Shown here: piece by piece, positions 2 through 14,230 of the stretch
Position numbering within the stretch: position 1 is the stretch's first letter
Layout of the letters: every line of letters starts with the position of its first letter
Origin: Terriglobales bacterium
GTDB taxonomy: Bacteria > Acidobacteriota > Terriglobia > Terriglobales > Acidobacteriaceae
Direction of reading: 5' to 3'
Length of the DNA stretch: 64,000 nucleotides
Assembly (NCBI GenBank): GCA_025934735.1
Contig: JAICWP010000003.1
Span: 186,001-250,000, forward strand
The notes under the pieces: generated by a model
The model's database searches: none
Told to the model about the DNA's origin: nothing
The model's input: the letters and a program-made list of their open reading frames with translations, nothing else
Position numbers and translations under genes: made by a program

Positions 2-1132
2 TTGATTTTCCAGCACTCTCCTGGCTTTACCCATGCCCAGACCAGCGGCAGCTATTCCTGGGTGATTCTCTCAACCGATTACGGCATGTCTTACCTTTCG
101 GGTTTTTACAATACTGGTTTGGCGCACAGTTCCGAAAACGCATACGGCGCAGCCTACAAGGGATTCAACGACAGCCTGGCATCCTGGGGCACGCACCGGG
201 TGATGGGCCAGCAGTGCGGGCAGACCTGGCTGCAGACCTTCAACAAGATCAACTCGATGTACAACTCCTCGCGCCAGCTGGATGCGCTACAGCTGGTCAC
301 CTGGAACGATTATGAAGAGGGCACCGAACTCGAAACTGGCATTGATAACTGCTTGACCATTTCGGCGTCGCTTTCCGACGGAAAGTTGCAGTGGTCGGTG
401 CAGGGGAACGAGAACACAGTGGATCACTACACTGTGTTCGTGTCCACCGACGGACAAAACCTGATGGAACTAGCCCAGGCAGGCGCGGGCAACCACTCCA
501 TCAATCTGGGCTCCTATTCGTTGCCGGCGGGAAACTACACCGTTTACGTGCAGGCGGTGGGCAAGCCGGTGTTCCGTAACCGTATGTCCGGTGAAGTTCA
601 CTATAGGAGCAGCGGCACCAGCAAGGGCAGCGGTATCAGGGTTGGGACCTCGCCCTCCACGCTGACCCTAACGGCCGGTCAAAGCGCCAACCTACAGATA
701 TCGGTGACCGCGGTGGGAACCAACGTGAGCGCGCCTGTTGCTCTGGCCTGCTCCAACCTGCCAGCCGGAGCCAGTTGCGTATTTTCGCCGAGTTCGGTTA
801 CACCCGGGCACGGCACGGCTACTGCGACCCTCACCATTACCGCCGGTAAGACAAGCGCATCCAAGCTACCTCGGGCGCCTGTTTATGTGCTATGGCTGCC
901 AATGTTTGGTTTTGCGGGCATGTTTCTGCTGGAAAGCCGCAAACTGCGCAAGCTCGCACTCGCAACTCTGCTCGGGGCACTGCTGCTGCTGCTATGCGCC
1001 TGTGGAGGAGGAGCTTCGCCAGGTGCTTCCATCGCCAGTCAATCGGTGGCGCAGGGCACCTATGCCATCACTGTCAGCGGGAGTTCCAATTCTCTGCAGA
1101 ACTCGACCACGCTGACATTGAACATCCGATAA
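2..1132 (+). CDS. Secreted GH99/GH71-like glycoside hydrolase with Ig-like domain and C-terminal membrane anchor (5' partial)
   Basis: The coding frame is already open at the window edge, so about 235 N-terminal residues are missing, judged against the neighbouring paralogue. The remaining catalytic part (visible residues 1-117) ends in the segment VTWNDYEEGTELETGIDNC, which resembles the acid/base strand of GH99 and GH71 alpha-glycan hydrolases. A fibronectin-like beta region follows (about 118-200), then an Ig-like domain (about 215-285), two hydrophobic helices (about 290-308 and 318-335) and a CACGGG sequence that looks like a lipobox, then a short beta tail. A polysaccharide-cleaving enzyme acting outside the inner membrane is inferred; the substrate is unknown. 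It faces its paralogue tail to tail and shares a terminator with it. Confidence 0.7.
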   Translation: MIFQHSPGFTHAQTSGSYSWVILSTDYGMSYLSGFYNTGLAHSSENAYGAAYKGFNDSLASWGTHRVMGQQCGQTWLQTFNKINSMYNSSRQLDALQLVTWNDYEEGTELETGIDNCLTISASLSDGKLQWSVQGNENTVDHYTVFVSTDGQNLMELAQAGAGNHSINLGSYSLPAGNYTVYVQAVGKPVFRNRMSGEVHYRSSGTSKGSGIRVGTSPSTLTLTAGQSANLQISVTAVGTNVSAPVALACSNLPAGASCVFSPSSVTPGHGTATATLTITAGKTSASKLPRAPVYVLWLPMFGFAGMFLLESRKLRKLALATLLGALLLLLCACGGGASPGASIASQSVAQGTYAITVSGSSNSLQNSTTLTLNIR

Positions 1133-1193: not shown

Positions 1194-2534
1194 TCAGAAC
1201 GTGACCGGCGCAGACATGTGATTGCTGATGCTGGGCTTGCCCACAGCCTGCACATATACCTTCGTGCCGCTCCCGGGATGAATATGGGCGGAGGAAACAT
1301 TGGCGGAGTGCCTGCCTGCCTCCACATCCACAATGTGATCGAAATTCTGGCCATCGCTGCTACTCCACACGGAGTAGTGGTCAATGGTCTTTTCGTCGCC
1401 CTGGATTTGCCAAGCCACTGAATTCCCGGCCACGTTGGCGGAAACGCTGACGCAGTTGTCAATGCCGCTTTCGATCTCAGTGCCTTCCTCGTAGTCGTTC
1501 CAGGTAACCAGTTGCACGCCCGTCAGTTTGGGATTCTTGCCGTAGTACTTGCCAATTTCGTCGAGGGTTGCCAGCCAGGTTTGACCGCAATTCTGGTTGA
1601 GGACCCGATGCGCGCTCCACCCCGACATAGTGTCGTTGAAACCCTTGTAGCCGCTACCGACCACTGCGTCTTTGCCATGCTCCATGCCGGTGGCATAGAA
1701 CGAATCCAAGTAGGACTGGCCCCAGTCGTTGGCGTCAGCGGTGTTGATTTCTACCCAGCTGAACCCGCCGTCGGTCTGAGAGTACTGAAAGCCCACTGCA
1801 TTGCGGAAAATGAAAACGGGCTTGCCCTTGACCTTGGCGCGAACTTTGTTCCAATCCACCGAATATTGTTCCAGGCCGAAGAAGAAGAGTGCGGGATGGC
1901 CCTTTATCTGAATGTAGGCAGGTGATTGGGCGTAATGGTCCATCACGTAATTCAGGTCGGCAATCACCTGGTCCGTTACATTGCAACCCGGAGTTTGCAC
2001 ACACAGGTGTGGTCCGCCTCCGGCATCTTCCATGACCGCGAACTGGAAGCCTTTGCGGCTCTGCGCATCCTGCATGATCGTGCTGGCGGCGGCGTTTACA
2101 TGGGACTGGCTCGAGTCTGTACCGTACCAGTCAATGATGGCGCCCTGAATGCCACGGCTCTGCATATCGTCAAGCTGCTTGTGCACCTGGTTCGGGTCGG
2201 CGGAGTCGTAGCCGACATTCATGTGATTGGACTGACCGAACCACACCATCAGGTGAGCCCAGATGGGGGTCGCGGCCGGAATGCTGAGAGCGCTGCGAAT
2301 GGAGACCTTGCTCACGTTGCCCGCGCCCGTGTTGCCGTTCCCTTGGGCTTGAAAAGAATCGGCGGCGCTGGTGTTGTTGGCCACGCTGGATTGCTGACTA
2401 TCGGCGGCCGGCGGGTTGGAATTCGGCTGTATCACTGCTGCTGTCCTTGGCGCCATGGACCCACCGCCACAAGCTGCCAATGCCAATGTCAGTGCCGCTA
2501 CCAGCAGCACGCTGCCCTTGTCGAAATTCGACAC
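1194..2534 (-). CDS. GH99/GH71-like glycoside hydrolase lipoprotein
   Basis: This 446-residue protein starts with GTG, with GGGGGAG five bases upstream. A signal peptide ends in the lipobox LALAAC (Cys22), so it should be an outer- or inner-membrane lipoprotein; a low-complexity Ser/Asn/Gln linker follows. The catalytic domain (about 85-350) has IIDWYG near its start and VTWNDYEEGTEIESGIDNC near its end, as in GH99/GH71-like alpha-mannan or alpha-glucan hydrolases. A beta-rich C-terminal domain ends in YVQAVGKP, also present in the convergent paralogue. Unlike that paralogue it lacks the Ig domain and terminal membrane hairpin. It may trim the polysaccharide made by the adjacent locus; this role is inferred from context. 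Confidence 0.75.
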   Translation of the reverse strand: MSNFDKGSVLLVAALTLALAACGGGSMAPRTAAVIQPNSNPPAADSQQSSVANNTSAADSFQAQGNGNTGAGNVSKVSIRSALSIPAATPIWAHLMVWFGQSNHMNVGYDSADPNQVHKQLDDMQSRGIQGAIIDWYGTDSSQSHVNAAASTIMQDAQSRKGFQFAVMEDAGGGPHLCVQTPGCNVTDQVIADLNYVMDHYAQSPAYIQIKGHPALFFFGLEQYSVDWNKVRAKVKGKPVFIFRNAVGFQYSQTDGGFSWVEINTADANDWGQSYLDSFYATGMEHGKDAVVGSGYKGFNDTMSGWSAHRVLNQNCGQTWLATLDEIGKYYGKNPKLTGVQLVTWNDYEEGTEIESGIDNCVSVSANVAGNSVAWQIQGDEKTIDHYSVWSSSDGQNFDHIVDVEAGRHSANVSSAHIHPGSGTKVYVQAVGKPSISNHMSAPVTF

Positions 2535-2820: not shown

Positions 2821-4071
2821 TTATACCCACGGAGCGGTGCGCGCGGAGACGGCGCGCGCCAAAGCTGAGCGGGCCGAAACCCAGGCGGGAATGCGGCGGA
2901 AGCGGCGCAGCGGTTCCAGGGCGCGGGTGCGCTGGTGGACGTCGAAGGCACGCAAATACTGGCGCACGATCTGAGGCATGGTCATGCGCATGGCGGCGGA
3001 GAAATTCTGCTCCGCCATCTGCCGCTGGCGTTCGGGGGATTGCAGCAATTCAACCAGTTGCTCCGCCATGCTGGCGCTGTTGCCGGTTTCGTAAAACGCA
3101 ATTGCCAGGTTTTCGTTATCGGCCATTTCTCGGAAATCACTTATATCGGCGCAGATGATGGGCAAACCATACGCGGCGGCGAGATGGGCGACGCCGCTGG
3201 AGCCCGCGGCCGAAGAGTAGGGCATGACTGCTACGGTGGCAGTTTGAAAAATCTCACCAATGTTATCTTCGGAGACGTAGCCGGTAAAAACGATTCGGGG
3301 ATCGTTCGCATACTTCGCGGCTACGGAGGCCACATAGCCCGGCGTCTTGGGGTGGTCGCCGCCGGCAATCACCAACTGGGCATCGGGTACTTGTTCGGCC
3401 ACCCTGGCAAACACCTCGAGGATTTGTTCCAGGCGCTTATAGGTTCCCCATTTTCCAAAGGCGAGAATGCGCTGCATGGGATTGCCGCGGCGGCTGAAGT
3501 CGGGGTATTCGGGACGGCTGGAAAGAATCCCATGCATGCGCACGTGCACGTTGGCGCCCCGATATTTCTCGCGCAAAGTGCGGCGATAGCCAGGTAGCAG
3601 GACGGAGATGGAGTTCGACATGAGCACCAGGCGTGTGGCCACATACCCGGCGGCGCGGTATACCCTGGGATAACGCACCCCCGCATCCTTCATCGAAATG
3701 TAATCGATCACCTGGTGCAGGGTGACGTGAGTATAGTAACCGGCGAGGCGGGTGAGGGCAGGGGCGCAGATGCCGGCAAAAGCCGGCGCCGGGCGGTCGC
3801 CGTAGCTGGAAAATCCCAGGTTGAACCACACCACGTCAGGCTTGAGGTCGCGAATGCGTGACAGCACCCGCTGGGTGCTGGAGAGCGAGTTGAAACGCCA
3901 GCACCGAAGAACGCTGAAATCCTCCAACTCTGGCTCCGGCGTCTCCAGTTCGTCGGCCAAAATGGTAAGGCTAAGCAATGGATTCTGCTGCAGCTCGCAA
4001 GCGATGTGGAACCCGTATTCCGCCAGCCCCCGGCGGCTGGGCGGGAAGGTTGTGACCAGACAAATTTTCAT
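2821..4071 (-). CDS. Glycosyltransferase family 4 (GT-B)
   Basis: The 416-residue protein begins MKICLVTTFPPSRRG, the usual start of a GT4 N-terminal Rossmann domain, so this ATG is chosen although the frame stays open further upstream inside the preceding gene. The C-terminal half has ILAFGKWGTYKRLEQ, the VIAGG strand and PYSSAAGSSG, the nucleotide-sugar-binding loop region of GT4 enzymes. The start codon overlaps the stop of the upstream GT2 gene (TGATG), indicating translational coupling. It should transfer a sugar from a nucleotide donor to a lipid-linked or growing polysaccharide at the cytoplasmic face; donor and acceptor cannot be read from the sequence. Confidence 0.85.
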   Translation of the reverse strand: MKICLVTTFPPSRRGLAEYGFHIACELQQNPLLSLTILADELETPEPELEDFSVLRCWRFNSLSSTQRVLSRIRDLKPDVVWFNLGFSSYGDRPAPAFAGICAPALTRLAGYYTHVTLHQVIDYISMKDAGVRYPRVYRAAGYVATRLVLMSNSISVLLPGYRRTLREKYRGANVHVRMHGILSSRPEYPDFSRRGNPMQRILAFGKWGTYKRLEQILEVFARVAEQVPDAQLVIAGGDHPKTPGYVASVAAKYANDPRIVFTGYVSEDNIGEIFQTATVAVMPYSSAAGSSGVAHLAAAYGLPIICADISDFREMADNENLAIAFYETGNSASMAEQLVELLQSPERQRQMAEQNFSAAMRMTMPQIVRQYLRAFDVHQRTRALEPLRRFRRIPAWVSARSALARAVSARTAPWV

Positions 4072-4796
4072 CAGGAGCCCAATTTGAAAAGGGAATCGAG
4101 AGACAACCGCCCCAGCAAAGAGAAATAGTCGAGCGCCACTTTCAGGCTGGCCTTGCTTTTGCCCGCGTGCCGCAGGCCAAAGTGAAACGGCACTTCCGCC
4201 GCCGCGCGGATGCGCCCGCGCACCAGAATCTCCAGCAGGATCTTGAAGCCCTGGGAGTGCAGGGGAATGCCGGCAATGCAGTTGCGCCGGACCACAAAAA
4301 ATCCGGAGAGCGGGTCTTTGACGCGGATGTTCTGTTTTTGGAGCGGCATGGTGACCCATGTGCCCAGAAGCGAAACCACGCGCCGGGCGGGATTCCAGCC
4401 TTTGACCGCATCTTCTGCCACATACCGGCTGGCGACGGCAATGTCGTAACCCTGCCGCATGGCTCTAAGCAGGTCCGGCAACAGTTCGGGCGGGTGCTGC
4501 AGGTCGGCATCCATAACCCCCAGCAGCTCCGCATCGGAGTGCTGCCAGCCATAAAGAACGGCGCCGGCCAAACCGCGCTCGCCCCGGCGCACCAGCAGCT
4601 TTACCCGTGGATCCTGAGCAGCGATCTCCTGTACCACTTGCGCGGTGCCATCGCGACTGTCATCGTCCACGACGGTCACGTTAAAGTTTACCCCCAGAGG
4701 GTCGAGGCTGGAGCGAACCCGCTGCAGCACGGCAGCGATGTTGCCGGCTTCGTTTAAGGTGGGGATAACCAGGTCTAATTTGTCCGACTTCTCCAT
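4071..4796 (-). CDS. Glycosyltransferase family 2, polyprenol-phosphate mannose/glucose synthase-like
   Basis: This 241-residue GT-A enzyme shows the family-2 elements in order: LVIPTLNEAGNI, VVDDDSRDGT, the DXD-type MDADLQHPPE and the SGFFVVRR strand. Overall it resembles DPM1-type polyprenyl-phosphate hexosyl synthases. It lacks the C-terminal membrane segments of GtrB/DpmA-like enzymes, so it is soluble or peripheral. It likely makes a polyprenyl-phosphate-linked sugar used by a GT-C-type transferase; the GT-C-like membrane protein at 14.5 kb is a candidate partner (inference). It is translationally coupled to the GT4 gene downstream. Confidence 0.82.
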   Translation of the reverse strand: MEKSDKLDLVIPTLNEAGNIAAVLQRVRSSLDPLGVNFNVTVVDDDSRDGTAQVVQEIAAQDPRVKLLVRRGERGLAGAVLYGWQHSDAELLGVMDADLQHPPELLPDLLRAMRQGYDIAVASRYVAEDAVKGWNPARRVVSLLGTWVTMPLQKQNIRVKDPLSGFFVVRRNCIAGIPLHSQGFKILLEILVRGRIRAAAEVPFHFGLRHAGKSKASLKVALDYFSLLGRLSLDSLFKLGS

Positions 4797-4887: not shown

Positions 4888-5622
4888 CTATTTCGGATTC
4901 AGGTTTTCGGGAACCAACGTTCCTGAATCCCGATTGGCATAGAGTCCCCCGCCGAGGCTGGCTTTCCCGGCCACCCGCTGGAAACGCTTCACCACCTCCT
5001 CTTTGGCTTGCTCGAGCGGAAGCGGAGGAACCACCTCCATGCCCATCACGCGGGCCAATTGCAGATAGGTCTGGCGGCAACGGCGTGAGAACTCAAGGGG
5101 GTATTCGGGCTTGCGGGCGCATGCTTCTTCGGGGTTGGCATCGATTACATATGACAAATCGGGGCGTGGCGCCAGCAGGCGGACGAAACGTAAAAAGGCC
5201 CTAGTCAGCAGGTTGTCCAGCGGAAGATTAGCCAGTTCATCATAGATGTAGCGGTCGAAGATGATGACCGCAGCACCCGAGCGCCGGGCGCGCGCCACCA
5301 CCCTGCGCAAATGGATTGCATCGAGCAGGTAAAGCCCGCTGCGGAACAGGCTGAGATACCAGGCGCGGACGTTCTTGTCGCGCCGCTGCACCGGCTTGCC
5401 GGGAGCGCCGATTCCCTTCTCGCTGCGGAAAACCTTGTGCGTGACGCCTTCCCGAAAGCGCGACAACACTACAACGTCGTCCCAGAAGGCCCGCTGGATT
5501 ACGCTCCAGCCAGCCGCGCGCAGAGTATCGCGCAGGTGTTCAATCTGGGTGCTCTTGCCGGCACCGTCAATGCCGGAGAAGCTGATCAGGAGCGGCGCGG
5601 GATGTGAGGCGGCGGTTTCCAT
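4888..5622 (-). CDS. Thymidylate-kinase-like P-loop nucleotide kinase
   Basis: The 244-residue protein has a P-loop FSGIDGAGKSTQ near residues 15-26 and FDRYIYDE, corresponding to the DRY region of thymidylate kinases, followed by the VIDANPEEACARK strand/helix. Housekeeping TMPKs are about 205-215 residues; the extra length is mainly a basic insertion between the P-loop and the DRY motif and a C-terminal tail. The position inside a polysaccharide locus suggests a specialised paralogue rather than the essential Tmk, perhaps phosphorylating another substrate; this is inference. The gene lies 12 bases after a small exported-protein gene and 91 bases before the GT2 gene. Confidence 0.72.
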   Translation of the reverse strand: METAASHPAPLLISFSGIDGAGKSTQIEHLRDTLRAAGWSVIQRAFWDDVVVLSRFREGVTHKVFRSEKGIGAPGKPVQRRDKNVRAWYLSLFRSGLYLLDAIHLRRVVARARRSGAAVIIFDRYIYDELANLPLDNLLTRAFLRFVRLLAPRPDLSYVIDANPEEACARKPEYPLEFSRRCRQTYLQLARVMGMEVVPPLPLEQAKEEVVKRFQRVAGKASLGGGLYANRDSGTLVPENLNPK

Positions 5623-5634
5623 GCGGCTGCGTGA

Positions 5635-6072
5635 TTATTTCGCTCCCGGCGGACGGCTCGGGCTGCTGCGCGACAAGGCATACACCGTGCCGATAGCTAA
5701 GGCGCCGCCGGCGATAGCGCCGAGTTTGATCAGGAACGAGCGCACCTGGTGCTGCTTCGCGGGAGCAATGGCCATGCCCGCAGGTCTGGACCCAGCCCCA
5801 CCGGCGGTCGGCCCGGCCTGGGCGGCCCCGGTTCCGGCGGGAGCCTGTGCCGGCTGCGCCGGAGGTTTCTGCTGCTGATCCTGGGGCGTGTTGTTGTTCG
5901 GCGCGGCTTGGCTTGGGGCGTCGGGCAGGGGTTGCGACGTCTGGTCGGCAGAAGATGCCGGAGGCGGGGCTGGAGCCTGGGTCTGGGCTGCCACCAACTC
6001 CGGTGCTCCGCACAGGCATACTGCCAATGCGAGACTCAGGATGCGCGCACTGCATTTCTTTTCGCGTTTCAT
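5635..6072 (-). CDS. Small exported Pro/Ala/Gln-rich protein with C-terminal membrane helix
   Basis: No family is recognised. The 145-residue protein has an N-terminal signal-like segment (residues about 10-29, ending VAAQ), a long disordered Pro/Ala/Gln/Ser stretch (about 30-105), and a C-terminal helix FLIKLGAIAGGALAIGTVYA that looks like a glycine-zipper membrane segment. The topology suggests a periplasmic linker tethered by its C-terminus. It sits between the STAS and kinase genes in the leftward polysaccharide cluster with short spacers, so it is probably co-transcribed. Function unknown. Confidence 0.6.
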   Translation of the reverse strand: MKREKKCSARILSLALAVCLCGAPELVAAQTQAPAPPPASSADQTSQPLPDAPSQAAPNNNTPQDQQQKPPAQPAQAPAGTGAAQAGPTAGGAGSRPAGMAIAPAKQHQVRSFLIKLGAIAGGALAIGTVYALSRSSPSRPPGAK

Positions 6073-6087
6073 GATCGTTCTCCGGTT

Positions 6088-6501
6088 TCAGGCGGCCAGT
6101 TTGGAGGAAGAGTCGCCGGCGGAGGCAGCGGCCGGCACGCCCCATTCGGCGTAGTGCCGCATGGCATTAGGAAGAAAGCCGCTGAAACTGCGCACCGCGT
6201 CTGAGACGGTGTCGTAGACTTCAAACAGGCGGTCGGCGCGGGTCAATTCGAGCACCACTCCCGCCTGGGGAGATAGGGCGGCCAGCTTGAGGTCGCCGTC
6301 GTGCTTCATTACGTCCGACATGCACTCCAGCAGCATGTCCACTCCCGCGGCGTCCATGCGGTGGACCGCGGAAAAATCAAAAACCACCTGGGGACGGTCG
6401 GAGCGCAGCAAAGGCTGCACTTCACGCAGGAATTCACGGGACTGTTGCAGGTTGATGCGATCTGGCATGCGCTTCACGATAACTGGTCTACTCGTTCCCA
6501 T
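6088..6501 (-). CDS. STAS-domain protein (anti-sigma-factor-antagonist fold) lacking the phosphorylatable serine
   Basis: The first 100 of 137 residues match the STAS fold: VVFDFSAVHRMDAAGVDMLLE aligns with the SpoIIAA core strand and helix. In SpoIIAA-type antagonists the loop reads D-S-S-G and the serine is phosphorylated by an anti-sigma kinase; here it reads D-A-A-G, so that control is absent by sequence. The gene overlaps the upstream nucleotidyltransferase-like gene by 14 bases, suggesting coupled expression and a complex with that protein or with a membrane partner. The C-terminal 35 residues are low complexity. A protein-interaction or scaffold role is inferred. Confidence 0.75.
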   Translation of the reverse strand: MGTSRPVIVKRMPDRINLQQSREFLREVQPLLRSDRPQVVFDFSAVHRMDAAGVDMLLECMSDVMKHDGDLKLAALSPQAGVVLELTRADRLFEVYDTVSDAVRSFSGFLPNAMRHYAEWGVPAAASAGDSSSKLAA

Positions 6502-7702
6502 ATCTCCTCACGACGGCAAAATCACCTGCGAATTGTGCTGCTTCGTTGGATGCGGAAAGTGGCTCAGGTGAGGGCTCCAGCTCAGCGGGATGCTGCCGCG
6601 AGGAACCGAGCACGTCACCCTGTGGAGGCGGAGGCGCGGGCTGGGTGCGTCGGCCTGCGGACGCCAATCCGCGCACAGCTTGCACGGGCAGATAGGCGGC
6701 CAGGGAGGCGGCATTCTTCATCATTCGCCAAGTGGCGGAAACGGCGACGGTGCCCAGCAGGCGGGGATCGGCGATTTCCACTTCCGCGCGCCGGCGCAGA
6801 TGACAAATTTTTCCAAAGCCGGCCACGGCGTGAGCGGCATCCAAGCCGGTTCCCACGTAGGTATAAGGCAAGATGGTGGTGTCCTCGAGCACGGTTCCGC
6901 AATCCACTTCCGCATGGTGCTCCACCACGCTGCAGCGCGTGACCACGGAAGCAGCGCGCAACTTGGCATGCGCTCCGACAAAAGCGGGGGCCAGAACGCG
7001 CGCGCTGCGATGAATGCGGGCGCGTTCGCCCACCCACACGCCAGGTTTGAGCTCGCGCCCCTGAGGGCGAATTTCGCAGCGCATCAGCAGGGCATCCTGC
7101 GCCAGGCGCCGCAGATCATGAGCATTTTCCAAGGGGTTGACGTAGGCGCGAGTCAGGTAAGGCTCCGAGGGCAAGCGGGTGGCCCGCAACCCGTTCCGTA
7201 AAAGGAAAGCGGCATCGTTGCGCCGCGCCGCCTGTACCACGGCTGCATCAAGCGGGCCTCTTTCGTCGCAAAGAAGCGTGGCAGTCTGCCGATGCTCCTG
7301 ATGGAAACGCAAAAAGTCCTCAAGTTCAAACTCAGCGTAAGGGCCCAGCCGAAGCAGCAAAACCTGCTCTACGCCTTCGTCGGCGTAAGACGAGAACGCA
7401 TCCTCGGCGGCCCGCCACACGTCGGCAGTCCGGCGGCAAGCGGCCTGGCCATCTCCATCACGCAGGGCCGTGTCCTGATACAAAGCGTCATCCGTGAGCG
7501 CCGTCACCGCCTCTACGCCTACCCGGCGCAGACGGTCGGCCACATGGTGCGCCACTGATTTACCCACGACGTCCAAAAGTGGAAGAGGAATTCCTGCAAA
7601 GGTCTCAAAGCCGGCACTACCAGGGTGGTGCTTTGCGGCAGCTTCAGGCTCCTCCTGGCGGGCGCCCACAACGATGATTGCTGCTAACTCCATTGCGCCC
7701 AC
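6488..7702 (-). CDS. Degenerate sugar-nucleotidyltransferase-like protein with left-handed beta-helix
   Basis: The layout over 404 residues follows sugar-phosphate nucleotidyltransferases: an alpha/beta N-terminal domain beginning ELAAIIVVGA and including PLPLLDVVGKSVAHHVAD, then a hexapeptide-repeat left-handed helix (about 215-330; GVWVGERARIH, VLEDTTILPYTYVG), then a Pro/Ser-rich tail. The catalytic GGxGTRLxPLT loop is missing; the first strand is followed by a Glu/Ala-rich stretch. It is therefore probably not an active pyrophosphorylase but a binding or regulatory relative. It is encoded with the overlapping STAS gene and downstream of the flippase. Activity assignment is uncertain. Confidence 0.6.
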   Translation of the reverse strand: MGAMELAAIIVVGARQEEPEAAAKHHPGSAGFETFAGIPLPLLDVVGKSVAHHVADRLRRVGVEAVTALTDDALYQDTALRDGDGQAACRRTADVWRAAEDAFSSYADEGVEQVLLLRLGPYAEFELEDFLRFHQEHRQTATLLCDERGPLDAAVVQAARRNDAAFLLRNGLRATRLPSEPYLTRAYVNPLENAHDLRRLAQDALLMRCEIRPQGRELKPGVWVGERARIHRSARVLAPAFVGAHAKLRAASVVTRCSVVEHHAEVDCGTVLEDTTILPYTYVGTGLDAAHAVAGFGKICHLRRRAEVEIADPRLLGTVAVSATWRMMKNAASLAAYLPVQAVRGLASAGRRTQPAPPPPQGDVLGSSRQHPAELEPSPEPLSASNEAAQFAGDFAVVRRYGNE

Positions 7703-7996: not shown

Positions 7997-10021
7997 TCAG
8001 GACGAAACTGCCGGTGTTCGGGTTTGCAGCTTGAGGACCCGATCTACCTCGGCATTGCGATCCCGGGGCAAGTCCCTCAGCTTGTTCTTGGCATAGCGCA
8101 GCAGATTCGCCACGCTCGTGTGGTACCAGCAGCATTCGGCCATGTGGTGCGAAAACCCGCAAATGACACGAAAATGGTCCGGCAAAGCGCCGGGCGAAGC
8201 CAGCAGGGCCGCGGCCATACGATGATTGCCCTCAATAATGGTGAGCGGGCTGCTTTCATCCTCCCCGATCAGCAGGATAGAACTGAAAGCGGCACTGTCC
8301 TGCCGCAGTTCGCTGCTGACCGCGTTCAGCTTGCGGCGGAAGCCCTCATCCAAATTTCCATTCCGCTCGCGGATGCTTTCCACAATTTCATTCACGTAAA
8401 AACGGCCGCGGGAAAGCTTGCGCCACTGGGCACGGGGAAAAAAGCGGATGCGCTCAATATCAGCGGGTTGCAATTCCGTTTCCCACCATTGTGTATCCTG
8501 CGGCAATTCACGCCACAGCGGACCGCGGCGGCGAAACAGTAGGGCACGCCGGAGCGCATTCTCCTCCGGGCTGCTTAGATCGGGATGCTCCACAAGGTGC
8601 TGGAATGCAACCCGGTCCTCATCAAACTCGGCGTGATGAAATTCGTTGCTTAAGAATTCGGCGATAACCTCGTCTTCGGGCAGCAGCCGCACTTTGCGCA
8701 TGGTGGCCAGCGCAGGCACTACCACAACCTCGCTGCCCAGACTCAGCCGGCTGCGCAGAAAAGCCAGGCACACGGTTAACAGCAGCAGCCCCAGCGCCAC
8801 CAACTGCACCACGACCACCTGCTGCAGGGTGGAGTGGAAGATTAAGATTCCTAGTACCACCACGCCGGCAAAGCCCAGCTGCACCCAGGCGCTGCTTGCC
8901 ATCTTGCGCGACATCTCGTAGGTGATAAACACCACGCTCAGCGAATACACGCCGGTGGCGGCGGCATAGAGCACCAGCAGCGAGGAATAGAAGGAAAGGT
9001 TCTGGTGGATGAAGCCGGCGCCGAATACGGCACGCCATACCAGGTTGGGGAACAGCCACAGGCCCAAGGTGAACCCGCCGGTAATCAGGATGACGATAAG
9101 CAGCGGCGTGAGCAGCACATCCCGGTCCCTCTCTTTTCCGGTACGAATGCCGGCGGAGATGGGAAACATGGCGCTCACCACCGACCAGGAGGACATGTAA
9201 ACCACGCGCCCGACCAGGGCCGCGGCTGCGTACAAGCCAGCGGCTTCCGCAGCAAAGAAGTGTTTGACCAGGATGATGTCTACATTGTTGATGACCACCT
9301 GGCCGACGAAGAAGATGATGGCCTGAATGCCCTCACCGAAGGAGGCGGGCAGCCCCGGTTGCGGAGGAGCCTCCAGTTCCCGGCCGGGGTGGCCGACCAG
9401 GTAAGCCGCCACTTCTGAGACTGTCACCGCGGCAATGGCGCCCTCCACACCGAAACCGAAATGGATGAGCAGAAACGCTCCGCCCAGCTTAACGATGCCC
9501 TCGATCAGGAAATTGCCTGCCAAGCGGCGGAAAGCGTAGATGCCCTGCATGCCCCCGCGGCGCACCCCTAAGGGAATGTAGAAGGCAATACCGATGGCCA
9601 GCAGGATAACCAGCGTTGGCGATCTAAGGTTGAGGTAAGCGGCTACCGGTTCGCTGGCCAGAATCAGCAAGGAAGCGATTACCATGCCGAATATCCAGGC
9701 ACGCCGGCGCAGGCCCATGTATACCGCTGCTTTGCCTCCGGCGGTCTCGTTCTTGGCCACGAACTTGGCGCAAACCAGCTGGAAGGAAAGGGTGATGCAG
9801 GAGATCAGCATCAGCAGCGTATAAACCGCTGCCGTCTCGCCGAAGGCTACGGGCCCCAACAGGCGGGCCACGCCCACGTTGTAAACCAGGTTGAGCAGAC
9901 TCACCAGGCCGGAGCCGATGAGCAGGGTTAGGCTGCCGCTCACGATGCGGCCCTGCGTGCCTTGCGAGCGCTGCTGAATGGCGTTGCGCACTCGTTCGGC
10001 TATAGAGGTAAGTCGGGGCAT
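7997..10021 (-). CDS. Wzx/MATE-like polysaccharide flippase fused to a ParB/sulfiredoxin-like C-terminal domain
   Basis: Residues about 20-440 form 12 or more hydrophobic helices with the polysaccharide-exporter pattern (LLNLVYNVGVARLLGPVAFG, an LGPxxFG motif). They are followed by a soluble domain of about 230 residues not found in ordinary flippases. Near residue 597 this domain carries IIEGNHRMAAALL, resembling the E-G-N-H-R motif of the ParB/sulfiredoxin fold, a nucleotide-binding fold. The ATG chosen begins MPRLTSIAERV; a TTG at 10048 would add nine residues. The gene lies just downstream of the giant TPR outer-membrane gene. Lipid-linked polysaccharide flipping is the likely role; the soluble domain is a possible regulatory or enzymatic add-on (inference). 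Confidence 0.75.
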   Translation of the reverse strand: MPRLTSIAERVRNAIQQRSQGTQGRIVSGSLTLLIGSGLVSLLNLVYNVGVARLLGPVAFGETAAVYTLLMLISCITLSFQLVCAKFVAKNETAGGKAAVYMGLRRRAWIFGMVIASLLILASEPVAAYLNLRSPTLVILLAIGIAFYIPLGVRRGGMQGIYAFRRLAGNFLIEGIVKLGGAFLLIHFGFGVEGAIAAVTVSEVAAYLVGHPGRELEAPPQPGLPASFGEGIQAIIFFVGQVVINNVDIILVKHFFAAEAAGLYAAAALVGRVVYMSSWSVVSAMFPISAGIRTGKERDRDVLLTPLLIVILITGGFTLGLWLFPNLVWRAVFGAGFIHQNLSFYSSLLVLYAAATGVYSLSVVFITYEMSRKMASSAWVQLGFAGVVVLGILIFHSTLQQVVVVQLVALGLLLLTVCLAFLRSRLSLGSEVVVVPALATMRKVRLLPEDEVIAEFLSNEFHHAEFDEDRVAFQHLVEHPDLSSPEENALRRALLFRRRGPLWRELPQDTQWWETELQPADIERIRFFPRAQWRKLSRGRFYVNEIVESIRERNGNLDEGFRRKLNAVSSELRQDSAAFSSILLIGEDESSPLTIIEGNHRMAAALLASPGALPDHFRVICGFSHHMAECCWYHTSVANLLRYAKNKLRDLPRDRNAEVDRVLKLQTRTPAVSS

Positions 10022-10048
10022 GATTACTGGCAGCTCTCTTTGTCGCAA

Positions 10049-13000
10049 CTAGAACAACGATATCTGCACCACCGGAACGATGGTGCCTCCGTGCGAAAAG
10101 TTGTAGAACTCCTGCTGCTGTACCCCGAACGAAATGCGGAAGGGATACGAGACCGGCACATCGCCGGACCCGGAGTTAAGCATTTGCCGCACGGGCTTGA
10201 CGTATGAGACGAGGAATCGGCTCTCTACGTTGTCATAGAAATGCATGCCCTGGCCGCGTGAGTAGGCGAACTCGCCTTCCGCCGACCAGTGAGTGGTCGG
10301 CCGGTAATCGAAACGGAACCCCGGACGCATCGCCTGGGCCAGAGCATACTGGCCGCCCTGGACGCGCCAGGCACGCAAGTAGTCGCCCAGAACTCCGAAA
10401 GTCAGCTTTTCTCCGAATTTATGCTGCACTCCAAAGCGGGTACCGGTTTCATAAAATTCGACCAGGCGGGGGTGAAACAGCAGATCATCGCCTGAGTACT
10501 CGGTAAACAGCGAGGTGCGGCCCCAGGGCCGGCCGACGGTGAACCCCACGGTGCCTCTTACTTCGCGCGAGTGCAGGGGAACTTCGGTGAATGGGCCCGC
10601 CTCACGGGTGAAGCTGGCGCGCACGGAGATCCAGTTAAAGAACGACGAAGTGGACATGTACACGAACTGACGGAATAGGTTCTGATTCATCGTCAGGGGC
10701 GCTTCAGTGTCGCGGCGCACCGTGAACTGCAGGCCCGGGTTGAACGCAATGGTGTTCGAGCCCAAGCGCAGCACCGGGTTGATACCCGTATTGAATGTGG
10801 TATCGAAGGTGTTGCGGTGCTGGATTACCAGCTCGCTGGGAAACGAGAGGGTGCCGTAGTCGTTGCGCTCTTCGGTGAAGCCAGTAATCGTCGGCAATCC
10901 GCCGATGTGCAGCTTGTAACCGGCGTCAACCTTGCTTTCAATCGAGTGGCGCGGGGCAGGCAGCAGTGCCGGATTGCGAACACCCAGCAACTTGGCATCA
11001 AGCTGGTAGATGTTGATGTCCTCAAAAATGGGCTGCAGCGACGCGTGGGGCAGCACGTTCACGTATTCAGTAATGGGACGCCCCACCTGGCCAGCAACAT
11101 CGAGTTCGGAACGCTCGGCATTGTCGTCATCCAGGGCCAGGCTGTTGGCCGTCGCGAAAGCCGTCAGGGCATTCGGCAGGTTCTGCTGCTGGCGGTACAC
11201 GTTGGCCTGCGCCATCATGTAATCGAAGTTGTGGTCGTAATCGGAGGAATTGCCCAAGCTGGCCAGTTCCGCCTGGGCGCTCTGGCTGTGCCCTTCGGCC
11301 AAGTCTGCATTGGCCATGCCGATGGCGATAACGGTGGCGTCGGCGCCGGCCAGCTTGGCGCGCTGTAGATATTGCCGGGCCAGGTCATAGTCGTGGGATT
11401 GCAGGAAGATGTTGGCCGCCTGCACCAGGTCATCGGAAGTAATGGGTTCCGCTTCGCCGATGCGAGCTTCGGCGAAGCCCAGGCTGACCTGCTGGCGGGC
11501 GTCGTCGTAATGGCCATCTGTGGCGAATACGCGTGCGATAGCCAGGCGGGCTTCCACTCTTTGCGCGTCCGGAGCGGTCAGGGCCCGCGAGAAGCGCTCC
11601 ATGGCGGCATTGCGATCGCCCAAAGTCAAGAGCGCGTCGCCGGTGGCCAGCAGCACGCCGGTTTGGTCGGAGCCGGCGCGCTCAGCTGCTTCAATGTAGC
11701 GGAAGGTTTGCTGCCGTTGATGCAGGCGGGCATAATTGTGGGCCAGTTCCGCGTAAATGAACGGATCTTGCGGCGAAAGCGTCAGCGCCTGGTTCAGCGC
11801 ATCAATCGCCTGGCTGTAGCGACGCATGTGGTAAAGCGTGTCCGCCAGGGACAAGTGGAGTTGCAGGTCATCGGGCGCATACTTCAGCGCAGCCTGGTAC
11901 TCCTTAGCCGCATCCGGCAAGAGTAGTTGTTCGCGGTAGACGCCGGCCATGGCCAGATGCGTAGCCTTGGATTCGCCGATGTAGCGCTGCGCCAGCTGCG
12001 TTTCTTTCAGCGCCACCTTGGGATGGTGCAGCTGCAGATTGGCGAAAGCCAGACCAAGGTGGGCCTCGCCGTAATCCGGCTTGAGCCGAATAGCTCTCTG
12101 GAAGTCGGCGGCGGCCTGGCGAGCATTCTGCGAATCGTTGAGCACGTAGCCGCGATTCACCAGGCCGGTGGCCATGTTCGGGTCCAACTCCAGGGCGTGG
12201 GTGAAGTCGTTTACCGCTTCGGTGAGCATCTGCGAATGCGTATGCACGTAGCCGGCAATCAGCCACAGGTCTTTTTCTTTGGGTAGGATGGGCTGGTAAC
12301 TCTCAACCAGGCGCAGGGCATTGTCATACTGCCCCATGTAAAGCAGGTCGTAGGCCAGGTATATGGGAGCTTCGCGGTCGCGCGGTAGTTTCTGGATTAC
12401 CTGCCAGCCCAGCTTGGCGGATTCGGCGTAATTGCCCGTCCAGGTCAAGTAACGCTCGTGTTCGCGCATGACCTCGGGGTTCTGGTTCATGTTGCCCTTG
12501 GCGCGGTCCAGCCACGTCTTGGCCAGCGGCAGCTTGTGCGATTCCAGCGAGGCATTTGCCCCGCCCGCCACGATTAGGGGGCTGGTCGCGTTGAGCGTGT
12601 ACGCCTTCTCGTACTCTTCCAGCGCCCGCGGATACTGGTTCAGCGCTGTGAACAGATCGCCCAGCCCGAGATAGGGCTCGTACGATTTGGGGTAGTACTT
12701 GGCGGCGCGAAGCAGGTAACCTTCGGCTCCTTTGGGATCGCCCAAATCCCGCAGCAGGTAGCCCAGGGAAATCAGCGCATAGCGGTTGCTCGGGTCGTTT
12801 TGCAGGGTACGCAGGTACATTTGCCGCGAATCCTGTTTGCGGTCCATCTTCCAGAGCAAACTGGCGTATTGCAGGCTGATATTGCTGTTCTTGGGGTCGA
12901 GCGAGAGCGCCTCGCTCATGTCTTTATCGGCAGCCTGCAGCTTTCCGGTGTCGGTTTCAATGGCGGCGCGCAAGCGAAGAAATTCCGGCCGTTGCGGGCC

Positions 13001-14230
13001 CTGCATGTTGATCTGGCTGATCTGACCGGCGGCGAGTTGCGCCTGCTGTTCGGCGGCGGCTTCATTGTTGTCGTCGCGGTAAAGCTGCGCCAGGGTCATA
13101 CGCAGCTCGATGGGATATAGAATCCCTTCCTGAGGCGATTGCGGAACGTTGCGGATTGCCTGGTCATACTGCCGGATGGCCTCTTCGGTCTGCCCCTGCA
13201 GCCGGGCAATCTCGCCGCGCAGCCCAAAAATGCGGTAGTGATTAGGATCAATGCCGGCGGCCCGGTTTAGAAACTGCTGCGCCTGCGAGAGCTGGTTGTC
13301 GTTGACCAGCGCCTGCGCCGCGCTGATCTGCAGGTTCAGCTGCTGCGGCTGAGCATTGGCCGCTTCCGCGTAGGTGCGCGCCGCGTTATCGATCTGCCCC
13401 GCCAGTTGGTAGGTATAGCCAAGTTCGGCCAGAAACCCGGGAGTGCGCTGGCGCACCTGCAACAGCGCGGCAATCGCATTCTTATAGTCACGGCTGTCCC
13501 GGTAGAACCCGGCAACCGAGCGCAGCACATCAGGGTCATGGGGGGCACGGTCCTTGGCCCGCTGCAGCATCTGCTGGGCTTTGGCCGGCTGCTTCAAGCG
13601 CATGTAAGCCTTGGCCAGAAGCAGGTCGCCGCGGGCGCTGGGTTGCAGGGCATCGCCGCGCTGCAGCATGGGCAGGGCCTTCTGGGCATCGCCGGAATCC
13701 AGAAATAGCTCGCCGGCCAACAGCAAGTCATTAGCGCTTCGGGGGTTGGCGGCAATCACCCGCTGCAGAAGTTGCTGCGCTTCCGCCGTCTTGCCCATGC
13801 GCACATAAGTTTGGGCCAGGCCCGACAGCCCTTCAATGGACGAAGGCCGCAGTTGCAGCCCGTGATTGTAGGCGTCCACGGAGGCGGCATTGCGGCCGGC
13901 CATGCGCGCGGTATAGCCGTAAGCGAACCACAAATCGGCATTCTGCGGGGCGGCATTGGCGGCCCGCTGGGCGAAATCGACGGCCTGCGCGTAGTTGCCG
14001 CGGCGCATCGCATCCTGTGCCGCGCGGGCGACCCGCGCCACTTGGATGCTCGCTCCCCAGCCAATTCCCTGTGAGGACGAATGTGCCCCGGGCGCCGCTC
14101 GCTTCTGCCCCTTCTTATGGGGAGCGGCGGGCGAGGGCTGCGACTGCCCATTGATGTCAAACGTCTGCGCCGCGAGGTGGGTGCCCGAAAAAAACAGGGC
14201 CCACCCCAGGATGGCAATCTGAACTTTCAC
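10049..14230 (-). CDS. Giant TPR-repeat outer-membrane beta-barrel protein, polysaccharide export (BcsC/PgaA-like architecture)
   Basis: The 1393-residue protein has a GTG start and a signal peptide ending near residue 21 (THLAAQ). A very long superhelix of TPR units runs from about residue 60 to 1050; recurring patterns such as A..LGY...G....A...Y..A are visible throughout. The last 300 residues are beta-strand rich with alternating aromatic residues and end in VVQISLF, an outer-membrane barrel signature with terminal Phe. This is the layout of BcsC, PgaA and AlgK/AlgE-type exporters, where periplasmic TPRs guide polysaccharide to a porin. It is probably the first gene of the leftward cluster. 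Substrate unknown. Confidence 0.8.
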   Translation of the reverse strand: MKVQIAILGWALFFSGTHLAAQTFDINGQSQPSPAAPHKKGQKRAAPGAHSSSQGIGWGASIQVARVARAAQDAMRRGNYAQAVDFAQRAANAAPQNADLWFAYGYTARMAGRNAASVDAYNHGLQLRPSSIEGLSGLAQTYVRMGKTAEAQQLLQRVIAANPRSANDLLLAGELFLDSGDAQKALPMLQRGDALQPSARGDLLLAKAYMRLKQPAKAQQMLQRAKDRAPHDPDVLRSVAGFYRDSRDYKNAIAALLQVRQRTPGFLAELGYTYQLAGQIDNAARTYAEAANAQPQQLNLQISAAQALVNDNQLSQAQQFLNRAAGIDPNHYRIFGLRGEIARLQGQTEEAIRQYDQAIRNVPQSPQEGILYPIELRMTLAQLYRDDNNEAAAEQQAQLAAGQISQINMQGPQRPEFLRLRAAIETDTGKLQAADKDMSEALSLDPKNSNISLQYASLLWKMDRKQDSRQMYLRTLQNDPSNRYALISLGYLLRDLGDPKGAEGYLLRAAKYYPKSYEPYLGLGDLFTALNQYPRALEEYEKAYTLNATSPLIVAGGANASLESHKLPLAKTWLDRAKGNMNQNPEVMREHERYLTWTGNYAESAKLGWQVIQKLPRDREAPIYLAYDLLYMGQYDNALRLVESYQPILPKEKDLWLIAGYVHTHSQMLTEAVNDFTHALELDPNMATGLVNRGYVLNDSQNARQAAADFQRAIRLKPDYGEAHLGLAFANLQLHHPKVALKETQLAQRYIGESKATHLAMAGVYREQLLLPDAAKEYQAALKYAPDDLQLHLSLADTLYHMRRYSQAIDALNQALTLSPQDPFIYAELAHNYARLHQRQQTFRYIEAAERAGSDQTGVLLATGDALLTLGDRNAAMERFSRALTAPDAQRVEARLAIARVFATDGHYDDARQQVSLGFAEARIGEAEPITSDDLVQAANIFLQSHDYDLARQYLQRAKLAGADATVIAIGMANADLAEGHSQSAQAELASLGNSSDYDHNFDYMMAQANVYRQQQNLPNALTAFATANSLALDDDNAERSELDVAGQVGRPITEYVNVLPHASLQPIFEDINIYQLDAKLLGVRNPALLPAPRHSIESKVDAGYKLHIGGLPTITGFTEERNDYGTLSFPSELVIQHRNTFDTTFNTGINPVLRLGSNTIAFNPGLQFTVRRDTEAPLTMNQNLFRQFVYMSTSSFFNWISVRASFTREAGPFTEVPLHSREVRGTVGFTVGRPWGRTSLFTEYSGDDLLFHPRLVEFYETGTRFGVQHKFGEKLTFGVLGDYLRAWRVQGGQYALAQAMRPGFRFDYRPTTHWSAEGEFAYSRGQGMHFYDNVESRFLVSYVKPVRQMLNSGSGDVPVSYPFRISFGVQQQEFYNFSHGGTIVPVVQISLF

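Follow-up and report, generated by a model that had tools for sequence, protein, structure and literature searches.

The window, the whole stretch of 64,000 nucleotides that was analysed, carries on its minus strand an open reading frame (ORF) of 674 codons with an ATG at 10021 and a stop at 7997-7999. An in-frame TTG at 10048, an alternative start, is likewise open. The encoded protein joins a Wzx-type flippase to a C-terminal module with a predicted ParB/sulfiredoxin (Srx) fold (Table 1). A sequence-only reading of the same DNA had placed an ORF at 7997-10021 and had pointed to IIEGNHRMAAALL in its product; the ORF exists, on the minus strand, and the segment is present, with EGNHR at residues 597-601.

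The ORF of the upstream TPR protein ends at 10049, and the alternative TTG start of the fused gene begins at 10048. The TPR protein is probably encoded in the same operon as the fused gene, and it has a putative C-terminal outer-membrane barrel. Neighbour order varies among the 63 loci compared. In some of them (e.g. L097) the STAS gene directly follows the module, and in others (e.g. L036) it precedes the flippase; partner-switching control of the locus by the STAS protein is possible. The TMK-like protein might modify a sugar or lipid carrier. The small conserved protein has, by eye, a signal-like N-terminus and a hydrophobic IKLGAIAG...GTVYALS stretch. At the far end, two convergent genes (2-1132, plus strand, and 1194-2534, minus strand) share sequence by eye, CGQTWL...LVTWNDYEEGTE; the former matches neither GH71 nor GH99, unlike the latter, which matches both below the cut-offs. 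We infer that this is a cell-surface polysaccharide locus, and the locus context suggests a lipid-linked saccharide as the putative substrate of the flippase.

Table 1. The fused gene, its domains, its neighbours and module relatives outside the window. Positions are those of the window unless a locus number precedes them. Counts are of homologues at E ≤ 1e-4 in 63 loci of at least 9 kb and are lower bounds, owing to contig ends and the 6-kb flank.
Feature	Position	Strand	Remarks
Fused gene: Wzx-type flippase with C-terminal module of predicted ParB/Srx fold	7997..10021	-	674 aa, stop included in coordinates; AlphaFold full-length pLDDT 84.6
MOP/Wzx flippase domain, residues 28-428	8738..9940	-	PF01943; WzxE 9g9n by VIA-align; 12 long helices in model
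Variable linker, residues 429-441	8699..8737	-	Identity 0.122; pLDDT about 57-67
Module of predicted ParB/Srx fold, residues 442-674	8000..8698	-	Model pLDDT 89.1; fold matches; alignments A1, A3
EGNHR, residues 597-601, putative equivalent of GxxR (P motif, Box II)	8219..8233	-	Conservation; weak hhalign register
TPR protein, 1393 aa, upstream of fused gene	10049..14230	-	Homologue in 38/63 loci, 38 on flippase strand
Nucleotidyltransferase / left-handed beta-helix-like protein	6488..7702	-	Pfam matches only below cut-off; 10/63 loci
STAS-domain protein	6088..6501	-	32/63 loci, 31 on flippase strand
Small conserved protein	5635..6072	-	No Pfam match; 17/63 loci
Thymidylate-kinase-like (TMK-like) protein	4888..5622	-	PF02223 6e-9; 37/63 loci, 32 on flippase strand
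Family 2 glycosyltransferase (GT2)	4071..4796	-	24/63 loci, 18 on flippase strand
Group 1 glycosyltransferase (GT1)	2821..4110	-	Start chosen inside longer ORF 2821-4359; 19/63 loci, 6 on flippase strand
GH71/GH99-like protein	1194..2534	-	Below both Pfam cut-offs; 33/63 loci, 12 on flippase strand
Anchored modules of predicted ParB/Srx fold, no flippase	L136 9561-10583 (= L002 gene); L137 9587-10564		Short hydrophobic N-terminus; two genera
Short EGHLR relatives	L114 3977-4585; L115 about 3989-4597		Large Streptomycetaceae plasmids; 'hypothetical protein' or unannotated

Domain organisation of the fused protein

Residues 28-290 score above the cut-off of Pfam Polysacc_synt (PF01943; 31.3 bits vs 28.2), and the fused protein reaches 33.5 bits in a PF01943 search of its own genome. 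The full-length AlphaFold model, calculated from an alignment of 60 full-length fusion sequences (A2), contains 12 long helices up to residue 428, a linker of low confidence (429-441) and the module from residue 442 onwards. In a VIA-align comparison of this model, the top match is WzxE (9g9n), an inward-facing lipid III flippase, with Z 34.7 and rmsd 3.2 over 393 residues; MATE transporters and MurJ occupy the rows beneath. These results support the flippase identity given in the sequence-only reading: the N-terminal part is a Wzx-type MOP flippase, with sequence placing it in the family and the model indicating the MOP fold.

A simple hydropathy scan finds 11 segments, as against the 12 helices of the model. 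Lys and Arg residues fall in three loops (five in 1-32, six in 85-109 and five in 154-182). The model was followed because these basic loops, too, suggest that the helices are even in number and that both termini are inside. Twelve long helices, with the basic loops on the expected side, put the C-terminus inside, so the module is predicted to lie on the cytoplasmic side.

The domain boundary falls at about residue 441/442 (window position ~8699), in agreement with the sequence-only estimate. Among the 60 fusions, mean pairwise identity is 0.546 for the flippase (28-428), 0.519 for the module (442-650) and 0.122 for the linker, a pattern that fits two constrained domains joined by a free linker. 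An in-frame ATG at the linker end (window 8701-8699) marks the place where other genomes start a separate module gene; Met occupies this position in only 6/60 fusions.

The module is predicted to consist of a helical N-terminal cap, the ParB/Srx core and a C-terminal CCWYxT...RYxxN extension. Its own AlphaFold model, calculated from 19 module sequences (A1), has a pTM of 0.85. When Foldseek candidates were compared with this model by VIA-align, rows 1-31 of the 33 listed were of the ParB/Srx fold (Z 5.1 to 2.7), 27 of them assigned by title and four (1vk1, Atu1540 and two Osa entries) being ones that we take to have this fold. Specifically, Srx scores 5.1, ParB/Noc 4.8-4.1, SerK (5x0b) 3.9 and SbnI (5uje) 3.5, all in the range under 8 in which, VIA-align warns, Z may reflect a common arrangement. 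The first unrelated row is hepatitis B core at Z 2.3. In Foldseek itself, run on the PDB, Srx, Noc, Spo0J, SerK and Osa chains are interleaved with unrelated ones and the best E value (0.65) is not significant. In a viral structure library the top match is a ParB/Spo0J protein at E 0.038, with none at E ≤ 0.001; 17 of the 50 matches listed are named ParB, Spo0J, sulfiredoxin or chromosome-partitioning, and many others are nameless. Many fold matches start at residue 71-76 of the module, and the helical N-terminal ~70 residues fall outside them. Because the Z values are modest, the fold call rests on the consistency of the matches and on no single score. Taken together, the model and the structure matches indicate a divergent ParB/Srx fold, as the sequence-only reading had suspected, and no different fold is predicted.

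The C-terminal 234 residues alone match no family at E ≤ 1 in Pfam or NCBIfam. None of the 19 module sequences matches PF02195 at E ≤ 1, and no HTH or dimerisation family was found in the fused protein or the module in Pfam at the same threshold. Single A1 members give five weak Pfam matches, one of them DndB at 0.033 (1/19), and six of the 19 weakly match the PHROG 'ParB-like partition protein' (best E 0.0032). Sequence searches of the PDB (phmmer and profile) return chance-level matches only, and PADLOC returns nothing. An hhalign comparison with 17 ParB domains (those usable from 24 loci) is weak (P 0.016, probability 2.8%), yet it sets GNHR on GERR. The genome itself holds a single PF02195 match at E ≤ 0.001 (C5:87084-87368), presumably a true ParB separate from the modules, neither of the genome's two modules being among the matches.

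[ED]GNHR occurs in 100/103 loci, 56 with Asp and 44 with Glu; the other three are one DGNRR, a contig with a sequence gap (L020) and one locus unmatched by the search pattern (L077). In the 60 aligned full-length fusions G598-N599-H600-R601 is invariant. The motif is thus more than chance. A1 has 29 invariant columns, of which 18 are polar, charged or aromatic. In sulfiredoxin the catalytic Cys lies in GCHR; the module, unlike Srx, has Asn at this position in all 60 fusions. In the 2025 survey of ParB-CTPase folds, GxxR is the phosphate (P) motif, and its R-to-A substitution abolished nucleotide binding in the binders tested (PMC12704722). According to the same source, 17 of the 28 ParB-fold proteins that were purified did not bind NTP in its assay, and the nucleotide type is not reliably predictable from sequence (PMC12704722). 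Most likely, the module binds nucleotide through its GNHR phosphate motif.

Fused genes, split pairs and stand-alone relatives

The 103 loci, drawn from two overlapping genome sets, comprise 79 with a fused gene, 19 in which a separate module gene immediately follows the flippase gene, two anchored paralogues and three that are incomplete or unclear. The fused count includes at least four loci that are cut by a contig start and are in frame with the flippase (L056, L069, L086 and L095), as well as L073 and L093, with open frames of 664 and 655 aa; L020 (sequence gap), L023 (a fragment) and L078 (whose module sits at a contig start) were counted in neither class. Such recurrence rules out an assembly error or chimera at ~8700, against which the sequence-only reading had advised a check along with a search for the same fusion. 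The fusion is real.

In the split pairs, the start codon of the module overlaps the flippase stop as NTGA in 18/19 cases (17 ATGA and one GTGA), and GGAGG lies within 16 nt before the module start in 16/19. Judged by these features, the arrangement has the layout of translational coupling. Among 61 genomes, flippase (E ≤ 1e-10) and module (E ≤ 0.01) are found in the same 19, and none has the flippase without the module; these are 19/37 genomes of the window's own family and 0/24 others. Co-occurrence is trivial wherever the genes are fused; six of these genomes have split pairs (G001, G014, G017, G022, G029 and G031). The fused and separate forms, the NTGA overlaps, the GGAGG sequences and the shared genomes together argue for a functional link between flippase and module.

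In a tree of the 95 different rows among 102, all split pairs lie on one side of a branch, with one change in 200/200 bootstrap trees and in 0/500 shuffles; the branch that sets them off has a support of 14/98, the sole outgroup has a very long branch, and the position of the root is uncertain. The fusion is also present in strain-titled (not MAG) records, namely Acidobacteriaceae bacterium KBS 83, Acidobacteria bacterium AB60 and Occallatibacter savannae AB23 (loci L054, L097 and L101), and experiments therefore look feasible.

A scan of genome contigs confirmed 143 relatives, and the 80 of them that were listed are all Acidobacteriota by title. In a sample of the phylum, 9/396 genomes match A1; for two of these the match is distant (E 8.4e-14 and, for L112, 0.007). 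The family is patchy, since many genomes of the window's own family have no A1 match. Viral contigs gave no relative (0/59 candidate stretches) and plasmids gave no match to the window's module, so these searches lend no support to a phage or plasmid origin. For the Kitasatospora relative described below, there was no phage record and no viral contig (0/23 stretches).

Some modules have no flippase beside them. The window's own genome has a second module, 47% identical, on contig 34, behind what by eye is a short hydrophobic N-terminus; the genome's sole flippase of this type lies on contig 5, and contig 34 holds none of its three PF01943 proteins. Genome G010 likewise has an anchored module without an adjoining flippase, and its only such flippase is elsewhere. 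Both anchored modules (L136 and L137) are convergent with a neighbour gene that is read as aroA. The idea that a relic of flippase TM12 serves as anchor in the standalone paralogues L002 and L021 was rejected, because the profile scored their N-termini no higher than shuffled ones. In G010 a gene upstream of the anchored module (L137 6416-8251, minus strand) encodes what by eye is a subtilisin-like protease whose tail is a long run of SAVWGT repeats.

There are also shorter relatives. One of ~200 residues, with DGHIR, comes from another acidobacterial family, and relatives with EGHLR come from Actinomycetota, on Streptantibioticus and Kitasatospora plasmids. They share E15, F20, L21, R62, P83, W88, W109, G171, R174, A177 and G192 (L114 numbering), are soluble as judged by eye and are without the CCWY extension, which sets the membrane-linked branch apart. 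The two plasmid relatives L114 and L115 have no Pfam or PADLOC family. In one annotated actinomycetotal record the module relative is flanked directly by genes for a sigma factor and a GNAT protein, an ABC ATPase is ~2 kb away, and no flippase is among the annotated neighbours. The paralogues and relatives without a flippase show that the module also exists by itself and does not depend on a flippase as its target, a point in favour of an enzyme.

Possible role of the module and related systems

In the open-access literature searched, no description of a flippase with a ParB/Srx domain was found. In the main text of the 2025 survey, to which this count is confined, the terms flippase, transmembrane, polysaccharide and acidobacter do not occur (PMC12704722). 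Both agree with the sequence-only reading, whose author knew of no described example. The survey collected its proteins by PF02195 (PMC12704722), which none of the 19 modules matches, and so it probably missed this family.

Sequence comparison establishes the gene, the family of its flippase part, the conservation of the motif and the recurrence of the two parts as a fusion or a coupled gene pair. What we propose on top of these is nucleotide-dependent control of flipping by the ParB/Srx module, a reading favoured over a kinase or a scaffold and given a probability of roughly 0.4, nucleotide binding and gating both being inferred. Specifically, the Wzx-type flippase, encoded in what is probably a locus for cell-surface polysaccharide in Acidobacteria, would carry a cytoplasmic C-terminal nucleotide module. 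Nucleotide bound or turned over by the module would alter the way in which the module touches the inner gate or the lipid-linked sugar. Flipping would thereby be allowed or stopped according to the supply of nucleotide or sugar-nucleotide. A more tentative suggestion is that flipping is under the direct control of a nucleotide switch of ParB type (CTP, ATP or sugar-nucleotide) within the same polypeptide. If true, such a switch would be a new kind of transporter control and, to our knowledge, the first of ParB fold to act on a membrane transporter instead of DNA. A flippase of soil Acidobacteria with a ParB-like domain thus hints at sugar export that may be controlled by, or coupled to, a nucleotide.

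It is rather unlikely, though closer to the favoured reading than the remaining alternatives, that the module is a SerK/SbnI-like small-molecule kinase, phosphorylating the lipid-linked sugar or a cytosolic precursor at the membrane and channelling its product to the flippase through the fusion. The fold matches include chains of SerK and SbnI, with Z values (3.9 and 3.5) that are not above those of Srx (5.1) or ParB/Noc (4.8-4.1). The acidic residue and the histidine of [ED]GNHR, kept in 100/103 loci, would suit a kinase, and so would the anchored paralogues and the short relatives without a flippase. Glu30 of SerK is named in mutant titles among the structure matches. SerK itself had been annotated as ParB and turned out to be a kinase of free serine (PMC5120207).

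A nucleotide-free scaffold, that is, a pseudo-domain docking the flippase to glycosyltransferases or other export parts, is less probable still. Mycobacterial MurJ/MviN has the same layout, its cytoplasmic C-terminal domain of nucleotide fold recruiting a partner (PMC6180346). A scaffold of ParB fold has been named in PadC (PMC12704722), and the 17/28 ParB-fold proteins that bound no NTP in the survey fit this role as well (PMC12704722). The recurring neighbours of the fused gene, which include glycosyltransferases, the STAS protein and the TMK-like kinase, are the sort of partners that a scaffold could dock. However, a GNHR that is almost invariant is difficult to account for if there is no ligand; the 18/29 invariant A1 columns that are polar, charged or aromatic may line a pocket. 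Finally, a fold that only resembles ParB/Srx, or an ordinary gene fusion without functional coupling, would account for the modest fold scores and for the helical ~70-residue part outside many matches, but it is very improbable given that 18/19 split pairs retain the NTGA overlap, that module and flippase share the same 19/61 genomes and that the module is conserved nearly as well as the flippase.

A flippase family with a fused, strictly conserved nucleotide-fold domain makes nucleotide gating versus phosphorylation coupling of sugar-lipid export directly testable. MOP flippases are usually thought to be driven by ion or substrate gradients, and a cytoplasmic control domain is rare among them. 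The fused protein resembles WzxE and other MOP (Wzx/PST) flippases in the 12-helix fold of its model, in passing PF01943 and in its polysaccharide-type locus. Unlike WzxE, it continues beyond residue 428, where the match stops, into a module without a WzxE counterpart.

With ParB, Noc, KorB, Srx, SerK and SbnI, the module shares the predicted fold and the GxxR P motif. It differs from ParB/Srx proteins in having no match to PF02195 or to an HTH or dimerisation family of Pfam, and in its extra helical cap, its CCWY extension and the membrane transporter joined to it. Canonical ParB has an HTH and a C-terminal dimerisation domain, neither of which was found in the module (Pfam, E ≤ 1). The fusions in the 2025 survey (HTH, HNH, UPF0020, CBS, DUF3850 and methyltransferases) likewise re-use the fold through new partners; unlike the present family, they were gathered by PF02195, and no flippase is among them in the main text (PMC12704722). 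With this family, the ParB/Srx fold would gain a membrane-transport branch and a subfamily whose members here escape PF02195.

The pneumococcal capsule kinase CpsD has ParB itself as a binding partner (PMC4574921), an independent and purely suggestive link between capsule export and the ParB fold. Further related papers concern the TacF 'gatekeeper' (PMC13385700) and VirB (PMC10770331). The closest working analogy is mycobacterial MurJ, from another phylum. Its pseudokinase has a protein-kinase fold, its substrate is peptidoglycan lipid II, and it has 14 TM helices (PMC6180346). The cytoplasmic pseudokinase tail, which is non-essential, binds FhaA and is proposed to lower flipping (PMC6180346). 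Like the fused protein described here, MurJ/MviN thus combines a MOP flippase with a cytoplasmic C-terminal nucleotide-fold domain that is proposed to regulate flipping (PMC6180346).
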